Origin: Gemmatales bacterium
GTDB taxonomy: Bacteria; Planctomycetota; Planctomycetia; Gemmatales; HRBIN36
Assembly: GCA_025060195.1 (NCBI GenBank)
Contig: JANXCQ010000021.1
Coordinates: 1-64,000, forward strand
Reading direction: 5' to 3'
Length of the DNA: 64,000 bases
Below are positions 11,748 to 48,269 of the stretch, in pieces; within the stretch, counting starts at the first letter, position 1; each line of letters opens with the position of its first letter. A program made the translations under genes and the position numbers. The notes beneath the pieces were generated by a model. It did not search any database. It saw only the letters and a list, made by a program, of their open reading frames with translations, and was not told the origin of the DNA.

Positions 11748-14072
11748 CTAACGCCGGTTTGGACGACCATGATTTATCAAGGCCTGAAACTGCGCGGTGA
11801 GTATCTCTCCTAGACCCCGCAATCGGGACACGGCATGCTCTAAGTCGCGAAATCGCTTTTCCAAGGTTTGGCGTTGCTGTCGAACTTGTTCACTAATCCG
11901 ATCGATACTCTCCTGAAGTCGCTGTGCCTCACTTTGCAAAACCTGGCGACCGGTTCGAATCAGCCCATATTGAGGATCGAAAAGAGTATGCAAGTATTGA
12001 TCTAATTTAGCAGCCATGCCCCGAGTTAAAACTATTTCCGCCTCCGGTCCTGACACTAACTGGCTAGGGGTCAAGCTGACGCGTACTTGCAGACCCGAAG
12101 TGGCTCGATTATTTTCATCACCGACAAGCAGCTGGCCCACTCCACGTGCAGGTTCGGTTTCTCCCTGAACCAAGAAGACACCCGCCACATCCTGACCAAC
12201 TCCCCGCTGTCCCACGGTGAATCCCAGCGAGGCCAACGCATTGCCCCCTACTAAATGTACTTCCGAATGCGAGCCGTAACTGTCCGAGCGGATTCGTAAT
12301 CGGTTTCCCTCTAAAGTTACTGTAACCTGTCGGCCCTCTTGTCGAGCGACGGCGTTCACGCGGGCCTGCAACTCCTCAGCTAACGCCTGTCGACTGTAGC
12401 TCCCCGGTGTTAAGGTGAGGTGATATAATTTACCATCTAATATCAAGCTTAGCTGATTATTGCTGTCGCTTAGTATGACATTAGTTGCCAAGTCCTGCGC
12501 GGCTAGAACACTAGCTTGCTCGGCCACTTGGGTGATGTCAACCTGTATAGGGGGCCCTGGGCTCACCGTTTTTAGACTTCCTGCCACAAACTTTACTCCG
12601 GCGTGATTGGACTGCCCCACGAAGGCAAAAAGTCGGCGAACATCGTCTAAAGTGATGCCGGGTACTTGACTAGTCAACACCCGATTGAGCCGCTGGTTAT
12701 CTATTTCCAAAGTTCCCTGTTGAGTCAGGCTAATACCCAAAGCACTCAGGCGATTAAGCTGGCTCGGCAGGCCTGGAATGGCCTCTGAAACCAGCCGCTG
12801 TAGTTCCCCCCTAATCTGTCTGGCCACTCGATTGCCGAACAAGGGACCCACTTGCTGCGTTTGAGCATCATAAGTCATATGTTGGTTGAGATAGCTTATC
12901 AACTCGTTGTATTTGTCGACAAATGCTGAGATCGCTTGGCGCATTTTTTCTATGTCTGGTACCACCTGCAATTGCACATTACGGTTCACATCGGCTCCAT
13001 GGATGGTAACTTGCACTCCTTCAAACAGATTGTTCCACGTATTATTGCCTGATTCCAGAAGCAGCGCACCGTCCCCGGAACCTAAACGGAGGCGAGCATT
13101 GGTTGGCGCCTGAATTTGTGGAGCAAACACATCTATAGTGAACTTGTCCCCCGTATTTAGGACGCCTGAAGAAAACTTAATCATCACCCCCTCGGCCAAA
13201 TTTTTGTAAACATCGGTGTCTCCAGCCCCTAATGTTATCAGGCCATAGTTGTTGCCCGTACTATCTTCGTAGCGCAGCGTAATGGTATCAGAGCCAACGG
13301 TGCCTCCCTGAAGCACGGTTAGATAGTAACTTTTTGATGTCGCACCAGTGTAGGCGCCGGGGCCCTGGTTACTAGTGGCGAAAGAGGTACTAGTATTGGA
13401 AGAGTGAGCCAAAGCAGGTCCGATATAACTGGCGTCGAACACAGGTTTGCGGGCCGGACCGGTGTCCGAGGCAAGCTGATTCGTTATCTGAATAAAGTTA
13501 TTAGCTCCTGCCTCTTGTGCTGTAACCAGAAGCCTGTAAGGTTGCGTGTGATTGGGCGAACCGTCATGAATCACGGCGGCGGTTACCCCGGCCTGCGCTG
13601 CATTAATGGCTGCAGCTAATCCCCGCAACGTGTTATTAGTTTGGTCAATGGTAAGAGTAACGGCATTCGACTGGCCCATACGAATAGTTAGTGTTCCTGT
13701 AGTAATTGGGCTATCTGGAGAGTCAAATCCTTGGCTCGCCAGTTGGTGGGGTCGAGCTATGCTAAGTACTTGAAATGAATAAGTCCCTGGAGTCGCCTGC
13801 GACGAGGCAGTCGCACTGGCTAGCTCAGGATAGTTCACGCGAACTTGGCGTTGTTCGAAGACGGTATTATGAGACCGAGCTAAGGCAAATAAACTATCCT
13901 GCAGAGCACGTAAACGATTTTCTACCTCCGCCAGCGCGTTTTGCCGCACCAGAACTTGATCCTTGCGAGCGTTCAACTTCTGAATTCGGCGCTGCTGCAT
14001 ATCCAGCAGGCCTTGGATGATCTTATCGGTGTCTAATCCTGTGACTAACCCACTGAAATGAATACTGGCCAT
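11748..14072 (-). CDS. fliD: Flagellar filament-capping protein FliD
   Basis: N-term FSGLVTGLDTDKIIQGLLDMQQRRIQKLNARKDQ; AFVDKYNELISYLNQHMTYD; C-terminal coiled coil. Confidence 0.93.
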   Translation of the reverse strand: MASIHFSGLVTGLDTDKIIQGLLDMQQRRIQKLNARKDQVLVRQNALAEVENRLRALQDSLFALARSHNTVFEQRQVRVNYPELASATASSQATPGTYSFQVLSIARPHQLASQGFDSPDSPITTGTLTIRMGQSNAVTLTIDQTNNTLRGLAAAINAAQAGVTAAVIHDGSPNHTQPYRLLVTAQEAGANNFIQITNQLASDTGPARKPVFDASYIGPALAHSSNTSTSFATSNQGPGAYTGATSKSYYLTVLQGGTVGSDTITLRYEDSTGNNYGLITLGAGDTDVYKNLAEGVMIKFSSGVLNTGDKFTIDVFAPQIQAPTNARLRLGSGDGALLLESGNNTWNNLFEGVQVTIHGADVNRNVQLQVVPDIEKMRQAISAFVDKYNELISYLNQHMTYDAQTQQVGPLFGNRVARQIRGELQRLVSEAIPGLPSQLNRLSALGISLTQQGTLEIDNQRLNRVLTSQVPGITLDDVRRLFAFVGQSNHAGVKFVAGSLKTVSPGPPIQVDITQVAEQASVLAAQDLATNVILSDSNNQLSLILDGKLYHLTLTPGSYSRQALAEELQARVNAVARQEGRQVTVTLEGNRLRIRSDSYGSHSEVHLVGGNALASLGFTVGQRGVGQDVAGVFLVQGETEPARGVGQLLVGDENNRATSGLQVRVSLTPSQLVSGPEAEIVLTRGMAAKLDQYLHTLFDPQYGLIRTGRQVLQSEAQRLQESIDRISEQVRQQRQTLEKRFRDLEHAVSRLRGLGEILTAQFQALINHGRPNRR

Positions 14073-14367: not shown

Positions 14368-15804
14368 TTAGCGCTGAAGTAAAGCGAGCACCAATTGAGG
14401 AACCTGATTAGCGTTCGCTAGGACGCTGATACCGGTCTGGAGCAGGATTTGTTGCTTAGTAAAGTTGGCGATTTCCTGGGCATAATCCGTATCGCGGATA
14501 GTGGACTCAGCAGCTACGGTGTTTTCCAAGGTCGCGCGGAGGTTGTTCGCAGTGGCCTCGAGGGTATTCTGTTGGAAGGCACCGAGCATGCCGCGCAAAT
14601 TGGTTACGTCATCAATGGCCTGATCGATGACTTTAATGGCGTCGGTGGCGCCGCTAACTGTCCGGACATTAATCTGGCTAAGGCTACTAAATTGCACGCC
14701 TGCGACGTTTAGCCCCAAAGCTGAAGTGGCCATATTGCCTATGGCTACTTTGGCGGTTTGCCCAGCGTTAGGACCGATCTGGAATTGCAAGGAGTTGTCG
14801 GTAACGGTAACCGTGCCCACGTTGCCACTAAACGTATTACCGACTAAGTTCGTGGCCGCGGTGTCGGTCTTGACGGCGACGCTAAGTCCTTTGGGAGCAC
14901 CGCTTACGGCAGTGAGTACATTTCCCGAGCCCACAGCGGCTTGCCCGCCGATCGTCCCAGCAATGTCCACGCCCGTGTCAGTCTGGATCGTCGTGGTAAA
15001 GCCCGCGCTGCCTGCGCCTTGGCGCGTGGAGACAACACTTATGCTTGCCGCCGAACCAAACTGCAATGTGCGTAGCACGATGCGATCGTTGTTGTCATCA
15101 TCTACCGCTTCCACCCCAGTTTGATTCGTATAGGAATTAATTCGAGAAATAATTTGAGCGCGGGTCATGCCGGCAGTTAGAGTGATGTTGACGCCGTTGA
15201 CAGTCAATACTTCATCGTTACTAATAGTATCATTGTCTGCCAAGGCCGTGGTGGAGATGATATAAGCCCGTTGCGCCGCAGTGGTTACGTTAACGGTGTA
15301 GGTCCCCGCTAACGTGTCGCTCGTACCTCGTAAGAAAACGGTCCTCGCAGGATCGCTGACGGAACCAGAAATTCCCGCGGAACCATCTAATAGTTTTTTC
15401 GTGCCGAACTGGGTGTTCGCGGCGATACGGTCAATGGTAGCCAAAATATTATTAATTTCGGCCTGGTTAGCGGCCAAGGCGTCAGCGTCGTGGACACCTG
15501 CGTTGGCGGAATCAAGGGCCAGACTGCGTGCCTTCAACAAAAGGCGATTGATTTCGTCCAGAGCGCCTTCAGCAGTTTGGACGAGCGAAACGGCCTTGCT
15601 CGCATTCTCGATCGCAGTTTGCAGACCGACAATTTGCGCACGCTGCTGTTCGCTAACCACCAAAGCAGCGGGGCCATCGGCACCGCGATTGATCCTTAGC
15701 CCCGAAGACAAGCGTTCTAAGGAACGCTGCAGTGCTGAATTCGTGCGTTTTAGGTTGTGCTGGCCAATCAAGGACGTGACGTTGTTGGTGATGACGAGAC
15801 CCAT
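14368..15804 (-). CDS. fliC: Flagellin
   Basis: MGLVITNNVTSLIGQHNLKRTNSALQRSLERLSSGLRINRGADGPAALVVSEQQRAQI; C-term QEIANFTKQQILLQTGISVLANANQVPQLVLALLQ. Confidence 0.96.
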   Translation of the reverse strand: MGLVITNNVTSLIGQHNLKRTNSALQRSLERLSSGLRINRGADGPAALVVSEQQRAQIVGLQTAIENASKAVSLVQTAEGALDEINRLLLKARSLALDSANAGVHDADALAANQAEINNILATIDRIAANTQFGTKKLLDGSAGISGSVSDPARTVFLRGTSDTLAGTYTVNVTTAAQRAYIISTTALADNDTISNDEVLTVNGVNITLTAGMTRAQIISRINSYTNQTGVEAVDDDNNDRIVLRTLQFGSAASISVVSTRQGAGSAGFTTTIQTDTGVDIAGTIGGQAAVGSGNVLTAVSGAPKGLSVAVKTDTAATNLVGNTFSGNVGTVTVTDNSLQFQIGPNAGQTAKVAIGNMATSALGLNVAGVQFSSLSQINVRTVSGATDAIKVIDQAIDDVTNLRGMLGAFQQNTLEATANNLRATLENTVAAESTIRDTDYAQEIANFTKQQILLQTGISVLANANQVPQLVLALLQR

Positions 15805-32680: not shown

Positions 32681-34666
32681 ATGGGCATGGAGCGATCCGC
32701 ATATCTCGTGGTGCGCCGACATGACGGCTTAGGGAACGTTTACCCTCTAGAGCCAACGCATCGGCACTTAATCGGGCGTGCCAAGACGAGCGAGATCGTC
32801 TTGGCCGACGATCTGTGCAGCCGACAGCACGCGGAAGTTTACTATCGCGAAGGTGCTTGGTGGATACGGGACTGCGGTAGCCTGAATGGCACCCGGGTCA
32901 ACGGGCAATTAGTGACCTCGGAATGTACGCTGTCACCCAACGACGAAGTGCTGATCGGCCGTACGCGGCTGGTCTTCGTGGAGCGGTTGGACCAACTCGA
33001 GCAGACCCGCGAAATGCCCGTGCCCGTTGGCGAAGAACGTTTGCTCATTCGAAAACGTTTGGGCCGCACGCGCTATGAAATGACAGATCTGCCTGACTTG
33101 GCTGAACAAGACATTACGGAACCGCCGACCGTTTTAGTCAATCGCCAACGCATTAGTCGCGATTTATCGCTTCTGTATCGGTTGGCGTTGGAAATGGGGT
33201 TGGTGAGCAGCGACACGGAATTGGCCCGTGTCGTCCTGAATGGTCTCTTAGAAGCGACCCTCGCAGATGCTGCGCTATTGTGCGAACTTCATGAGGGACG
33301 TGCCAGTGTTTTGGCGCACCAGGAGAGGACCCTGGGCGGGGTAACTCCCAGGGTTCCTGATTTCGTTATCCAAGAGGTCATCAAGACCCGAGAGGCCATA
33401 TTCGCGGAACATCCGCGGCGTTTGCAATTCTCGGAACGAGACAATCCGCGTACCTTACTCACGCGAAGCGGCCACGGGATGATTTCCGCGCTCATCTGTG
33501 CGCCGGTGGTCATTCACGACCGCGTCGAATTGTTGCTCGCGGTTTGCGTTTTAGACCCGCTCAAATCGCTCACGAGTGAAGACCTCGACGTTACGGTTGC
33601 GCTCGCTAAACAGCTGGCTGTCTCCTGGCAGGCAGTCCGTCGGCAACAGGAATTAGCCCAGGAAAATAAGAGGTTGCGCGACCAAATTCTGCAAGAAGTG
33701 CGGTTAGTGGGCGAAAGCGCAGCGATGCAGGAGGTCAAGCAGAAAATTCAGTTAGCTGCTCGCTCTGATGCCACCGTGCTAATTCGTGGCGAAACTGGGG
33801 TAGGCAAAGAACTGGTCGCCCGGGCCATTCACTTGTGTAGTCCTCGTGCGGGGAAACCCTTTGTATGTTTGAACTGCGCTGCTTTAGCAGAGTCGCTTTT
33901 AGAGAGCGAGTTATTTGGCCATGAGAAAGGCGCTTTTACGGGCGCTACCGAGCGGAAGATTGGTAAGTTTGAATCAGCTCACCAAGGCACGATCTTCTTG
34001 GATGAAATTGGCGAAATGACTCCGAGCGCCCAGGCTAAGTTGCTACGCGTCCTTGAAGGCCATCCCTTCGAGCGCGTCGGAGGTTCGCAGCCTATTCGTG
34101 TGGACGTTCGCGTGGTGGCCGCAACCAATCGTCCCTTAGAGGAAGCCATTCGAGCGGGACGCTTCCGTATGGACTTGTATTATCGTTTGCAGGTCATCGA
34201 GATTTATGTACCGCCGTTGCGGGAACGGCGCGAGGACATTCCACTGTTGGCCGAGTTTTTCCTCCGACAGTTCGCCCAGCAAATGGGCCGACGCCTGCGC
34301 GGGTTTACTCCTGCGGCGATGAAAAAACTTCTCGAGCATCCTTGGCCTGGCAACGTCCGTGAGCTCCGCAACGTCATCGAACGTGCCGTGGTCCTGAGCC
34401 AGCATCACACCATTGACGCCGACGATATTTGGCTAGCTCCCGTACGCCCGGAAGGCGCCGTCGGGGAAACGCAAAAGCCGACCTATGAACCAATTTCCCT
34501 CGAAGAATTAGAAAAACGGCATATCCAGGCGACCCTGGAATACACCAAATGGAACAAAAGCCAGGCCGCTCGCATTTTGGGTATCGAACGTTCCACTTTA
34601 GACCGAAAGATTCACGCCTATGGTCTGAACAAGGAGGCAGGCAAAGAGTCTCCAGGCGACTCTTAA
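32681..34666 (+). CDS. FHA-GAF-AAA+ sigma-54-dependent transcriptional activator (Fis-type HTH)
   Basis: [53 protein letters not shown]+: [43 protein letters not shown]-terminal [27 protein letters not shown]. Confidence 0.96.
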
Positions 34667-43506: not shown

Positions 43507-43522
43507 TGGCACGCCGCTTGCT
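43507..43522 (+). promoter_or_regulatory. Sigma-54 (RpoN) promoter upstream of fliK
   Basis: TGGCACGCCGCTTGCT is an exact match to the -24/-12 consensus TGGCACG-N4-TTGCW, 38 bp before the fliK ATG. Confidence 0.9.
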
Positions 43523-43559
43523 CTTTATTTTGTGAGATACCTAGATGACTTAACCAGCT

Positions 43560-44918
43560 ATGAGTCTTACATCTACATCAACCTTAGATGTTATCCCGAC
43601 CTCTCAGATTACGGTGTCAGACATTCTGCCTTCAACAGCGCCGCAGACACCTAAGGCTCAGGAATCCGAGCTTCTACCGTTTATCGCGGCATTGTTTCAG
43701 TATTTGCAGACTGACTTGCTCCAACAACCATTCGTGAAAAAGTTTGAGGAAAATCAGTCAGAAAAGAATGATCACTTGTCTGAGGTACTACCCGCAGAAG
43801 TTACTCATCTCGTAAACGCTTCTAGTCGCCGAAAAGAACTTTTGGCCGTTACCCCAGTGGGATCTCATGCTACCAAGACAACTCCCGAGTCATGTTCGTG
43901 CATCCCATTAGACCCAATTCCAGTTTGTATGACTTTTGATGGGAACAATAATGCAATCCTAAATTCAAGGTTTTTTCGATGCGGTACGCTAGACTATACC
44001 GCCACTATAGCCAAGGCTAATTACGCCCTATCCGGATACAGCATGGATACCTATACTAGCGGTATCATTAATCAAAGAACCAGTGCAGTCAGACCCGCCA
44101 TCTCGACTACCAGTCCGGTGCCGACGGACACTTCCTGCGACGGTCCAAGTTTTTCCCTCTCCCTTAGCGCTATTCCGTTCGTGAACAGTGCAATTTCACC
44201 TAATAACAATACGGCCAGCGCTGGAATCAAGTATGAAATTCCTGCGAATCAAACGGATTATACCAACAAGACGTTTTTCAGCCAAAATATGCAGTCTACT
44301 AATTCCAATAATTCGTCAGCTAGACAAGATTTCATTCGATTCGGTTCCTCTTTATCTGAATCTTTATTTGCGGCATGGGATAACTCCCTGTTTTTTTCAA
44401 GCGATGCTCTAGTGAATGTGGCCGAGGAACCTGATAACCCTCTGAGACACAAGCCTTTGACGCAAGTTCCAGCCACGCTCGGAACCGAGGAATTATTTTA
44501 CACTAAGCCTCAATCAGAAAACTCACCCGTTTATCGGCAGACAGCTCAGGCAGTCAAGGAATGCCAAGACCTTGCTGCCTCTAAGAGTCCCATACATATT
44601 CATTTACGTTTAGAACCGCCTGAATTAGGTCATGTGATCATTCATGTTCGGATGCTAGGTAACAGCTTAGAGGCTCATTTCAGGGCAGAGCACTTGAGCA
44701 CTCATACTCTCCTAGAGCAGCAACGGTCACTATTACAGGAACATCTGACCGAGCTTGGCATAAACGTCAAGACGATAGTTGTTAGTTACGATCCCGAACA
44801 ACAACGCCGGTGGCGCAGTTGGTTCGAGGCGCCGATAATGAAAACAAAGCCACTAACTCGCGTGGCCAACGAATTAGCCTCCAGTAGCGAAGACGTAATA
44901 GTCAACATGACTGCCTAG
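43560..44918 (+). CDS. fliK: Flagellar hook-length control protein FliK
   Basis: C-terminal IHIHLRLEPPELGHVIIHVRMLGNSLEAHFRAEHLSTHTLLEQQRSLLQEHLTELGINVKTIVVSY is the FliK C-domain; flgD and flgE follow. Confidence 0.9.
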   Translation: MSLTSTSTLDVIPTSQITVSDILPSTAPQTPKAQESELLPFIAALFQYLQTDLLQQPFVKKFEENQSEKNDHLSEVLPAEVTHLVNASSRRKELLAVTPVGSHATKTTPESCSCIPLDPIPVCMTFDGNNNAILNSRFFRCGTLDYTATIAKANYALSGYSMDTYTSGIINQRTSAVRPAISTTSPVPTDTSCDGPSFSLSLSAIPFVNSAISPNNNTASAGIKYEIPANQTDYTNKTFFSQNMQSTNSNNSSARQDFIRFGSSLSESLFAAWDNSLFFSSDALVNVAEEPDNPLRHKPLTQVPATLGTEELFYTKPQSENSPVYRQTAQAVKECQDLAASKSPIHIHLRLEPPELGHVIIHVRMLGNSLEAHFRAEHLSTHTLLEQQRSLLQEHLTELGINVKTIVVSYDPEQQRRWRSWFEAPIMKTKPLTRVANELASSSEDVIVNMTA

Positions 44919-44939: not shown

Positions 44940-45353
44940 ATGCCCATGAACATAGCACCTCTTACCTCTTCTCATGGTCTTCGCGAAAACCAATCATCGA
45001 CCAGAAGAAGGCCCCTGGGGCGAGATGAATTCTTGCAATTATTGGTGGCTCAATTGAAGACTCAGAATCCGATGAGTCCGTTGGACGGGGCTGACTTTGC
45101 AGTGCAGTTGGCACAGTTTTCACAATTGGAAAACTTAATGCAACTTAATCGCAGCATGCAGCAATGGTTACAGTTGCAACAGTTAGTTCAAGCCGCCAGT
45201 CTAGTGGGCCGACGTGTTCAGTATCAATCCCTGGACAGTCAGCAGCTAAAATCCGGCATGATTACCGCAGTTCATCTCGTAAATAATGAGCTCAGGCTCC
45301 AAGTGGATAGCGAGATGGTTAGCCTGACGCAAATACGCGCCTTTTTGGCCTAA
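44940..45353 (+). CDS. flgD: Flagellar hook assembly protein FlgD
   Basis: LGRDEFLQLLVAQLKTQNPMSPLDGADFAVQLAQFSQLENLMQLN. Confidence 0.95.
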   Translation: MPMNIAPLTSSHGLRENQSSTRRRPLGRDEFLQLLVAQLKTQNPMSPLDGADFAVQLAQFSQLENLMQLNRSMQQWLQLQQLVQAASLVGRRVQYQSLDSQQLKSGMITAVHLVNNELRLQVDSEMVSLTQIRAFLA

Positions 45354-45414: not shown

Positions 45415-47472
45415 ATGTCCCGGGCTTTACTGGCGGGCGTTTCCGGATTACGCGTACATCAGCAAATGCTCGACGTGGTCGGCAATAACTTAGCCAATGT
45501 GAATACCACGGGTTTCAAAGCCCAAAGAATACGTTTTCATGAGCTGTTATATCAGACGTTAAAGCGAGCTACGGGCGTAGTATCGCAGGCGGTGGGCGGT
45601 ACTAATCCGATTCAAATCGGCTTAGGCGTCGGTGTGGCCGCAATCGACACCGTTTTAGAACAGGGTAGTCTCGAGGCCACAGGACGACCTTTAGATTTAG
45701 CCATTCAGGGGGATGGATTTTTCGTGGTGCATGACGGCGTGCAGCAATTATATACTCGGGCTGGGGCCTTTAGCATCGATAAAGATAATTATCTGGTGGA
45801 TTCAGCCACGGGTTATCGGGTTCAGCGTTTCGGTACTATAGGCGAGGGAGACGCGTTATTACCTCGTTTTCAGAATCCTGGGGATAACAATATTCGCATT
45901 CCTTTCGGTACCACAGTGCCTGGCCGGGCAACAACTTCGATAGATTTTCGGGGCAATCTTAGTGCAGGCGCCTCAGGTCCTATTCAGGAAGTCCTCACAT
46001 CAGCGACGCCATTTAGGGATACTCAATACCTTGTAACGCAGCCTTTCATCACCAATGCGTCGGGTAATCCGCCCGCTAACGCTGCGACTTTACTAGTGGA
46101 CTTACAAGGCTTCGCTTTTGCTAACGGCGATGTCATCACTATCAATGGCACCCGTGCCGACGGAACGAGCGTGCCGACGCAAGTTGTTGTCGTGAACACG
46201 GCTGTAACCACTTTGGGCGATATAGTGAATGCCATCCAAACGGCCTTTGGCAACAGCGCAGAGGTAACTCTCGACAATGTCACCGGTCGCATAACTGTGC
46301 GAACGGAGCAGAACGGAGCGTCGAATGGTTTGAGCCTTAACATCACGGACACCGCTGGGAATAATACTGCATGGATGAGCCTCGTGGGCGCGGGAGCCGC
46401 TACTTTAGGAGGCGGTAGCTTAGCTACTGCAAGTACCCCTTTGAATCATTTGGCCACTAATACCGCCAATTATCAAGTAGGAGACACCATTCGTATTCAA
46501 GGGACCGACGCCGACGGTACAGTTATTAGTGCGCTGTTTGTTTACGGCGTGGATGGAACGACTCTCGGTGATTTGGTGGCCCGAATTAGCTCCGTGTTTC
46601 CACAGGCCACTGCTAACTTGGTAAATGGAAATTTAGTTCTGACTGCGAATAATCCAGGGCCGGCAACCTTGACGCTGAATCTCTACGATGGGCCTACTAA
46701 TGTCGGTTCGACTAACTTTGCCACTCATGGCATGAATTTGACTGTGGATGGTAGACATGGAGATACTGTGCGTAATGCAATTCAGTTTTATGATCTTCAG
46801 GGCCGAGCTCACACCATTACTTTTACTTTTCAAAAGCAAGGGCCGAATCTTTGGGATATGTATGCCAGTGTCGATCCCTCAGAGGGCGTGTTGCTGGATG
46901 ATAGAGTAACTCAAATTCGCTTCAACAACGATGGCTCGTTCCAGCAGGTAACCGGGGCAGGCCATGGCGATTCTAAAATCGTAGTGCTCGTTCACGGAAT
47001 TAGCGTGCCGCAAGAAATTCGCATCAATTTAGGCGAGTCGAATTCCTATACGGGTGTAACGCAATTCGGGGGCAGTTCTTCGGCATCAGCGGTGCAGCAA
47101 GACGGTTATGGCGCGGGCTTTCTTTCCGGACTATCCGTGTCGCAGAGCGGCACAATCGAGGGAGTGTTTACAAACGGCCGAACCTTACCCATCGCTCAAC
47201 TTGCTATAGCTAATTTTACCAATCCCGGAGGTTTGAACCGCGAGGGTAAGAATTATTATAGTCTGAGCAACAACTCTGACTTGCCCATGGTCGGGCCTGC
47301 AGCGAGCGGGGGACGTGGGATTATAACCCAAGGCACCCTGGAGAACTCGAACGTGGACGTGGCTTTCGAATTCACGAGGTTAATCTTAGCGCAGCGAGGA
47401 TTCCAGGTGAACGCCCGCACCATCACAGTTAGCGATCAGATGTTGCAAGAGTTGGCTAATATTATTCGCTAA
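45415..47472 (+). CDS. flgE: Flagellar hook protein FlgE
   Basis: MSRALLAGVSGLRVHQQMLDVVGNNLANVNTTGFKAQRIRFHELLYQTLK; C-term GTLENSNVDVAFEFTRLILAQRGFQVNARTITVSDQMLQELANIIR. Confidence 0.96.
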   Translation: MSRALLAGVSGLRVHQQMLDVVGNNLANVNTTGFKAQRIRFHELLYQTLKRATGVVSQAVGGTNPIQIGLGVGVAAIDTVLEQGSLEATGRPLDLAIQGDGFFVVHDGVQQLYTRAGAFSIDKDNYLVDSATGYRVQRFGTIGEGDALLPRFQNPGDNNIRIPFGTTVPGRATTSIDFRGNLSAGASGPIQEVLTSATPFRDTQYLVTQPFITNASGNPPANAATLLVDLQGFAFANGDVITINGTRADGTSVPTQVVVVNTAVTTLGDIVNAIQTAFGNSAEVTLDNVTGRITVRTEQNGASNGLSLNITDTAGNNTAWMSLVGAGAATLGGGSLATASTPLNHLATNTANYQVGDTIRIQGTDADGTVISALFVYGVDGTTLGDLVARISSVFPQATANLVNGNLVLTANNPGPATLTLNLYDGPTNVGSTNFATHGMNLTVDGRHGDTVRNAIQFYDLQGRAHTITFTFQKQGPNLWDMYASVDPSEGVLLDDRVTQIRFNNDGSFQQVTGAGHGDSKIVVLVHGISVPQEIRINLGESNSYTGVTQFGGSSSASAVQQDGYGAGFLSGLSVSQSGTIEGVFTNGRTLPIAQLAIANFTNPGGLNREGKNYYSLSNNSDLPMVGPAASGGRGIITQGTLENSNVDVAFEFTRLILAQRGFQVNARTITVSDQMLQELANIIR

Positions 47473-47576: not shown

Positions 47577-48269
47577 ATGCTTCTCCTGGTGAAAGTATTG
47601 ATACTTTATGCCGTATTAGTGGGCCTGCTTTGGCTCGTATCGCTATTTTTGCACTATTATCTATATACGCAACAGCCGGAAGGCTTAGTTTGGCGTGTGC
47701 CATTAGCTGCAGGGGTTATTGTCGTCGTATGCCTGATTTTCCCATTAGTCATGGCGCAATGGTGGGATCAGGTCGTGCCTATCACCATGGGTCAAATTTT
47801 TCTGGATACTACGCCGCCTCACGTCATAGAGTTCGATCAAATCGAAGTCATGGAAGCGGGGCGCAAAGTAATCTATCGCAGGGAAGGAAAGGGTATAGGG
47901 CCTGATAATTTTGTTGCTCCCGATCGGCGTAGGTTTCCTCGTGATATCGAGGAGTTTACAGCTGTAACTCGGGACGAGGAACAAAGAATCAAGTTCCAAG
48001 CTATGCGAAGGAATCAGGATAATGCCAGGTTAGGCGGTACTAACCAAGTTTATGTTTCCGAACAAGGACATCGTATGGGGCTGGGAGAATTGGGACGTAT
48101 AGAATTAGGCTCGCCTGGCACGCGAGCTTTGTCTCTGTTAGTGGTTGTATTGGGCCTAGGTTCTTGGATCGGCTCGTTTCTCTTGTTGCAGTTTAATTTC
48201 GGTCATGCCCTTGGTTTGGGGATAGGTTTATATTTGGCTTGGTTATTTTTGATGGGATTCGTCTTTTGA
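47577..48269 (+). CDS. Conserved hypothetical membrane protein
   Basis: Two N-terminal and two C-terminal hydrophobic segments around a soluble middle. Confidence 0.65.
   Translation: MLLLVKVLILYAVLVGLLWLVSLFLHYYLYTQQPEGLVWRVPLAAGVIVVVCLIFPLVMAQWWDQVVPITMGQIFLDTTPPHVIEFDQIEVMEAGRKVIYRREGKGIGPDNFVAPDRRRFPRDIEEFTAVTRDEEQRIKFQAMRRNQDNARLGGTNQVYVSEQGHRMGLGELGRIELGSPGTRALSLLVVVLGLGSWIGSFLLLQFNFGHALGLGIGLYLAWLFLMGFVF

Follow-up and report, generated by a model that had tools for sequence, protein, structure and literature searches.

The dependence of hook genes on RpoN is classical in several Proteobacteria (PMC3930126). In the middle operons of Campylobacter, Helicobacter, Vibrio and Pseudomonas, a -24/-12 element lies before the hook and hook-length genes, genes for RpoN and for AAA+ activators are present, and FliA is found as well (PMC3930126); all of these components were also found in the planctomycete genome described here. 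The resemblance to these Proteobacterial systems (PMC3930126) ends at two points. First, the sigma-54 site was found at the hook operon only, and a sigma-28 promoter of the flagellin gene is not evident. Second, the likely activator carries no receiver domain, and no kinase of the FlgS/FleS type was identified. For the Planctomycetia, Carrera-Reyna et al. (2025; PMC12316311) predicted in silico that sigma-54 controls some motility and basal-body genes; in the portions of that article drawn on here, hook genes are named for other classes, not for the Planctomycetia, and a dedicated flagellar activator module does not appear. In the open-access papers that our search found, no flagellar activator module like the one reported below is described for a planctomycete. 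A role of sigma-54 in the motility of the Planctomycetia had already been predicted; what may be new is its restriction to the hook operon, together with the activator module.

The window, that is, the whole stretch of 64,000 nucleotides analysed, corresponds to positions 1 to 64000 of contig C40 in a genome (G000) of 3.94 Mb and 126 contigs. A preliminary description, made from the letters alone, had assigned it to a probable planctomycete. This assignment agrees with the closest named record for FlgE, the MAG 'Gemmatales bacterium SKYG129', at 92% identity. In planctomycetes, flagella are a feature of the swarmer stage and, to our knowledge, little is known about flagellar gene control outside the Proteobacteria. 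The present locus bears on whether the hook checkpoint is RpoN-based there, and on how it runs without a two-component pair. The features considered are the following.

43507..43522, plus strand: predicted sigma-54 (-24/-12) promoter, an exact consensus whose position is conserved in the same-genus genome G003 and in other planctomycetes
43533 (about), plus strand: transcription start as predicted from sigma-54 promoter geometry, 12 bases past the C of the -12 element
43560..44918, plus strand: fliK, hook-length control, first gene of the operon (Pfam Flg_hook, 6.4e-16)
44940..45353, plus strand: flgD, hook cap (Pfam FlgD, 8.3e-18)
45415..47472, plus strand: flgE, hook protein (Pfam FlgE_D2, Flg_bb_rod, Flg_bbr_C; 92% identical in SKYG129)
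47577..48269, plus strand: small protein of 230 aa, probable fourth gene of the operon (co-directional, 104-bp gap)
14368..15804, minus strand: flagellin gene fliC (Pfam Flagellin_N/C), used for comparison in the promoter scans
11748..14072, minus strand: fliD, filament cap (Pfam FliD_N/FliD_C)
32681..34666, plus strand: sigma-54 activator with FHA, GAF, AAA+ and Fis domains (Pfam)

The 230-aa protein had no Pfam match; in G003, an ORF of like length (229 aa, L044:9361-10050) follows flgE. Within family f1, FlgD was not found in five of the seven members (G001, G002, G004, G005 and G006), and flagella appear to be confined to the window's genus.

The sequence TGGCACGCCGCTTGCT, at 43507-43522 of the plus strand, is an exact match to TGGCACG-N4-TTGCW (here TGGCACG-N4-TTGCT), which confirms the observation that drew attention to this locus. 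Its GG lies at 43508-43509 and its GC at 43520-43521, and the dinucleotides are spaced by 10 bp, as a sigma-54 promoter requires. The motif sits in a 377-bp intergenic gap between an S41 peptidase gene and fliK; it begins 53 bp upstream of the fliK ATG (43560), from which its last base is separated by 37 nt. When GC 43520-43521 is taken as -13/-12, the geometry gives the same start, near 43533, as had been proposed earlier, and predicts a leader of about 27 nt. Near this promoter we saw no inverted repeat with exact arms of at least 7 that might serve as an enhancer or activator site.

Such a match could arise by chance, with transcription of the hook operon coming from a promoter of the sigma-70 family or running on from the S41 peptidase gene. 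The genome-wide counts are compatible with this reading: base counts predict about one exact match in the genome, where three are found, and at 0 or 1 mismatch there are 46 matches versus 52 for the backwards pattern used as a control. Therefore, the motif by itself is no proof, and the information lies solely in its position; genome-wide enrichment was dropped as evidence, as there was no excess over the control. Within the window, this is the sole match at 0 or 1 mismatch, and the 19 matches at up to 2 mismatches, against 13.2 expected, show that the loose motif is not enriched there. The position, however, speaks against chance. The match stands 53 bp before a flagellar operon, and in shuffles of a 400-bp stretch around the start of fliK the site was significant at p=0.005, the floor for 200 shuffles. 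We found no sigma-70-type promoter on the plus strand before fliK, and a gap of 377 bp separates the operon from the upstream gene. To this is added the behaviour of the site in relatives. In the same-genus MAG G003, the sequence TGGCATTGCACTTGCG, which departs from the consensus in its CG and W positions, stands 52 bp ahead of the fliK ATG; the spacing is thus kept within DNA that does not align beyond chance (local score of 18 upstream of fliK, against a shuffled mean of 21). Moreover, as shown below, such sites are enriched across planctomycete hook operons. A fortuitous match thus appears very improbable.

We compared 34 fliK loci using a matrix that approximates the published consensus frequencies, with start codons left uncurated. 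The best forward site upstream of fliK had a median of 10.8 bits, versus 6.3 on the reverse strand (p=4e-5) and 7.0 in gene bodies (p=1e-4), these p-values being optimistic because the loci are related. Sites of at least 13 bits occurred upstream of fliK in seven of these loci, as compared to one on the reverse strand and one in a gene body. In family f4, another planctomycete family of the same class, hook operons that begin with fliK often carry such a site, and in many f4 genomes it is located 50-90 bp before the start codon. For example, G207 has TGGCACGCCGCTTGCA 64 bp before the ATG, with 15 of 16 bases as in the window site. In family f2, a sister family within the order of the window's genome, no comparable sigma-54 site was found before fliK (L077, L078, L081 and other loci), which is generally embedded in a longer run of co-directional genes; regulation therefore seems to differ within the order.

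The genome carries one RpoN, with the AID, core-binding and DNA-binding domains and the RpoN box ARRTVTKYRKLLRIPSSRQR, so that the absence of rpoN, which had been named as a result that would overturn the proposal, was not observed. With FliK, FlgD and FlgE identified by Pfam, rpoN present and the site conserved, the proposal that the hook operon is under RpoN is very likely on sequence grounds, and the element at 43507-43522 is, on the same grounds, very probably a functional sigma-54 promoter.

We then asked how far this type of control extends among the flagellar genes. In the same genome, no convincing sigma-54 site was found upstream of flgB, flgF, flgG, flgK, fliD, fliC or the flhA cluster, and of the operons examined, only that of the hook therefore carries the signal. 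Likewise, the regions upstream of fliC in 15 f4 genomes contained no strong sigma-54 site (median 3.6 versus 2.7 on the other strand, highest 9.2); G003 stood outside this flagellin comparison, as a contig break falls inside its gene. The preliminary description had also regarded the flagellin promoter as sigma-28-like, which was not supported. Upstream of fliC in the same genome, no sigma-28 consensus was present at fewer than 3 mismatches, the best match having 3, and no shared consensus was seen before fliC in the 15 relatives, the levels being no better than on the reverse strand; a divergent planctomycete consensus may apply.

These results bear on a fuller scheme, in which a two-tier hierarchy as in Vibrio and Campylobacter would place the hook genes under sigma-54 as middle genes and flagellin under FliA as a late gene. 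One part of it stands, at the level of sequence: the hook operon has its sigma-54 site, and FliA-type sigma genes are present, so that a second tier is possible. The gene at C50:33616-34281, away from known flagellar genes, scores 262.9 bits against a curated cut-off of 189.6, and a second FliA/WhiG-like gene, at C71:171354-172019 just downstream of flhA, scores 166.7 bits, below that cut-off. The other part was not supported. Neither fliC nor its counterparts in the 15 relatives show an evident sigma-28 promoter of the kind that the late tier would call for, and sigma-54 sites, which precede the middle genes of the model systems, were not found before the flgB, flgF and flgK operons. We consider the complete hierarchy possible but doubtful. 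The analogy with Vibrio and Campylobacter is in any case a loose one, since the site is found at the hook operon only and the likely activator has no receiver.

Which activator could serve the hook promoter? The genome encodes eight true sigma-54 activators, as judged from strong Sigma54_activat matches. In G024 and G070, the gene directly before fliK encodes a sigma-54 activator composed of an AAA+ domain and a Fis-type HTH. Among 150 f4 genomes searched, 28 had orthologues of this activator. Most of these loci have fliC and fliD at a distance of about 4 kb and in divergent orientation; the activator gene is followed directly by fliK-flgD-flgE in G190 and G226, and by flgB-flgC-fliE in G239. 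The median fliK site was 11.5 in f4 genomes with the activator and about 5.5 in those without it (p=0.005), a comparison in which the negative group comprises only 4 genomes and p becomes 0.011 when one search region is left unadjusted. Some relatives, such as G076, have the activator and no good fliK site.

In f4, the activator is the last gene of a module that first encodes two TPR proteins, one of about 720 aa with a middle part that we read as STN-like and one of about 320 aa, and then a small protein of about 140 aa. The same order is found on contig C11 of the window's own genome (L148:5987-10844, minus strand), with proteins of 710, 311 and 232 aa and a 419-aa activator. Among 400 ORFs of this genome, profiles of the f4 proteins matched only the 710-aa (2.8e-53) and 311-aa (3.4e-20) proteins of C11, and the middle part of the large TPR protein matched by itself at 1e-6 (shuffles, 0.46 at best). 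Homology of the 232-aa protein to the small f4 proteins was considered and set aside, as it was not significant and shuffled controls scored higher. No receiver domain (Response_reg) was detected in the activators of C11, G070 and G024. In the tree, the C11 activator branches beside the flagellum-linked clade, on a long branch; no reciprocal best hit linked it to the f4 clade, and no flagellar gene was recognised among the C11 neighbours examined. Because the same module exists in this genome, the 419-aa activator of C11 is probably, by module synteny, the most likely partner of the promoter at 43507. This call is weaker than that of the promoter.

One could also imagine that the sigma-54 promoter answers to a different activator, for example the window protein (32681-34666) or a receiver-bearing protein of the NtrC type, of which the genome has three. 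With eight activators in the genome there is no shortage of candidates. Moreover, the window protein is encoded 9 kb from fliK and is the best BLAST match in this genome for the flagellum-linked f4 activators, at 48-53% identity over the AAA+ domain. However, it groups in the tree with other activators of its own genome, apart from the flagellum-linked clade, and its FHA and GAF input domains are absent from the flagellum-linked proteins. It was rejected as the preferred partner, since it falls outside that clade. The C11 module, for its part, agrees with that of f4 in gene order and in two further proteins. Control by another activator is therefore unlikely in our opinion, and the C11 protein is retained.

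The C11 protein has features in common with FlgR, FleR, FlrC and FlbD, namely the AAA+ sigma-54 interaction domain and the Fis-type HTH; in relatives, the genes of its counterparts are linked to flagellar genes. Unlike them, the C11 protein and its f4 counterparts have no receiver domain, and the C11 protein is far under the NCBIfam cut-offs for FlgR (224.6 versus 750) and FlbD (278.3 versus 750).

Since the site recurs in relatives and is tied there to an activator that has a counterpart in this genome, hook building is probably switched by RpoN. Altogether, we think it likely that the promoter at 43507-43522 drives fliK-flgD-flgE, possibly together with the 230-aa gene, that the C11 protein is its most likely activator and that the hook step is separately gated. 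In this scenario, RNA polymerase carrying RpoN would bind GG(-24)/GC(-12) as a closed complex, which the AAA+ activator would open, and RNA would start at about 43533. The C11 activator, if it is indeed paired with this promoter, would presumably be under the control of the TPR proteins of its module, and not of phosphorylation, in response to some putative signal. Hook assembly would then be a separately gated step, distinct from the transcription of flgB, flgF, flgK and flagellin.

We speculate, more tentatively, that planctomycetes may place hook construction alone under sigma-54 through a dedicated activator without receiver, and that the module partners may sense the state of assembly in place of a FlgS/FleS kinase. 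These partners are the large TPR/STN-like protein, which seems to be anchored N-terminally, the other TPR protein and the small protein, whose kind is uncertain and possibly chaperone-like. From this analysis come a defined promoter and candidates for both the activator and its partner proteins, which can be looked for in culturable relatives.

As a minor observation, a second exact intergenic consensus is present in this genome at C30:44569-44584 (L042:10569). Its first base lies 178 bp before a large NAD(P)H nitrite-reductase-like gene (Pyr_redox_2, NIR_SIR), and nitrogen metabolism is a plausible target of this site.
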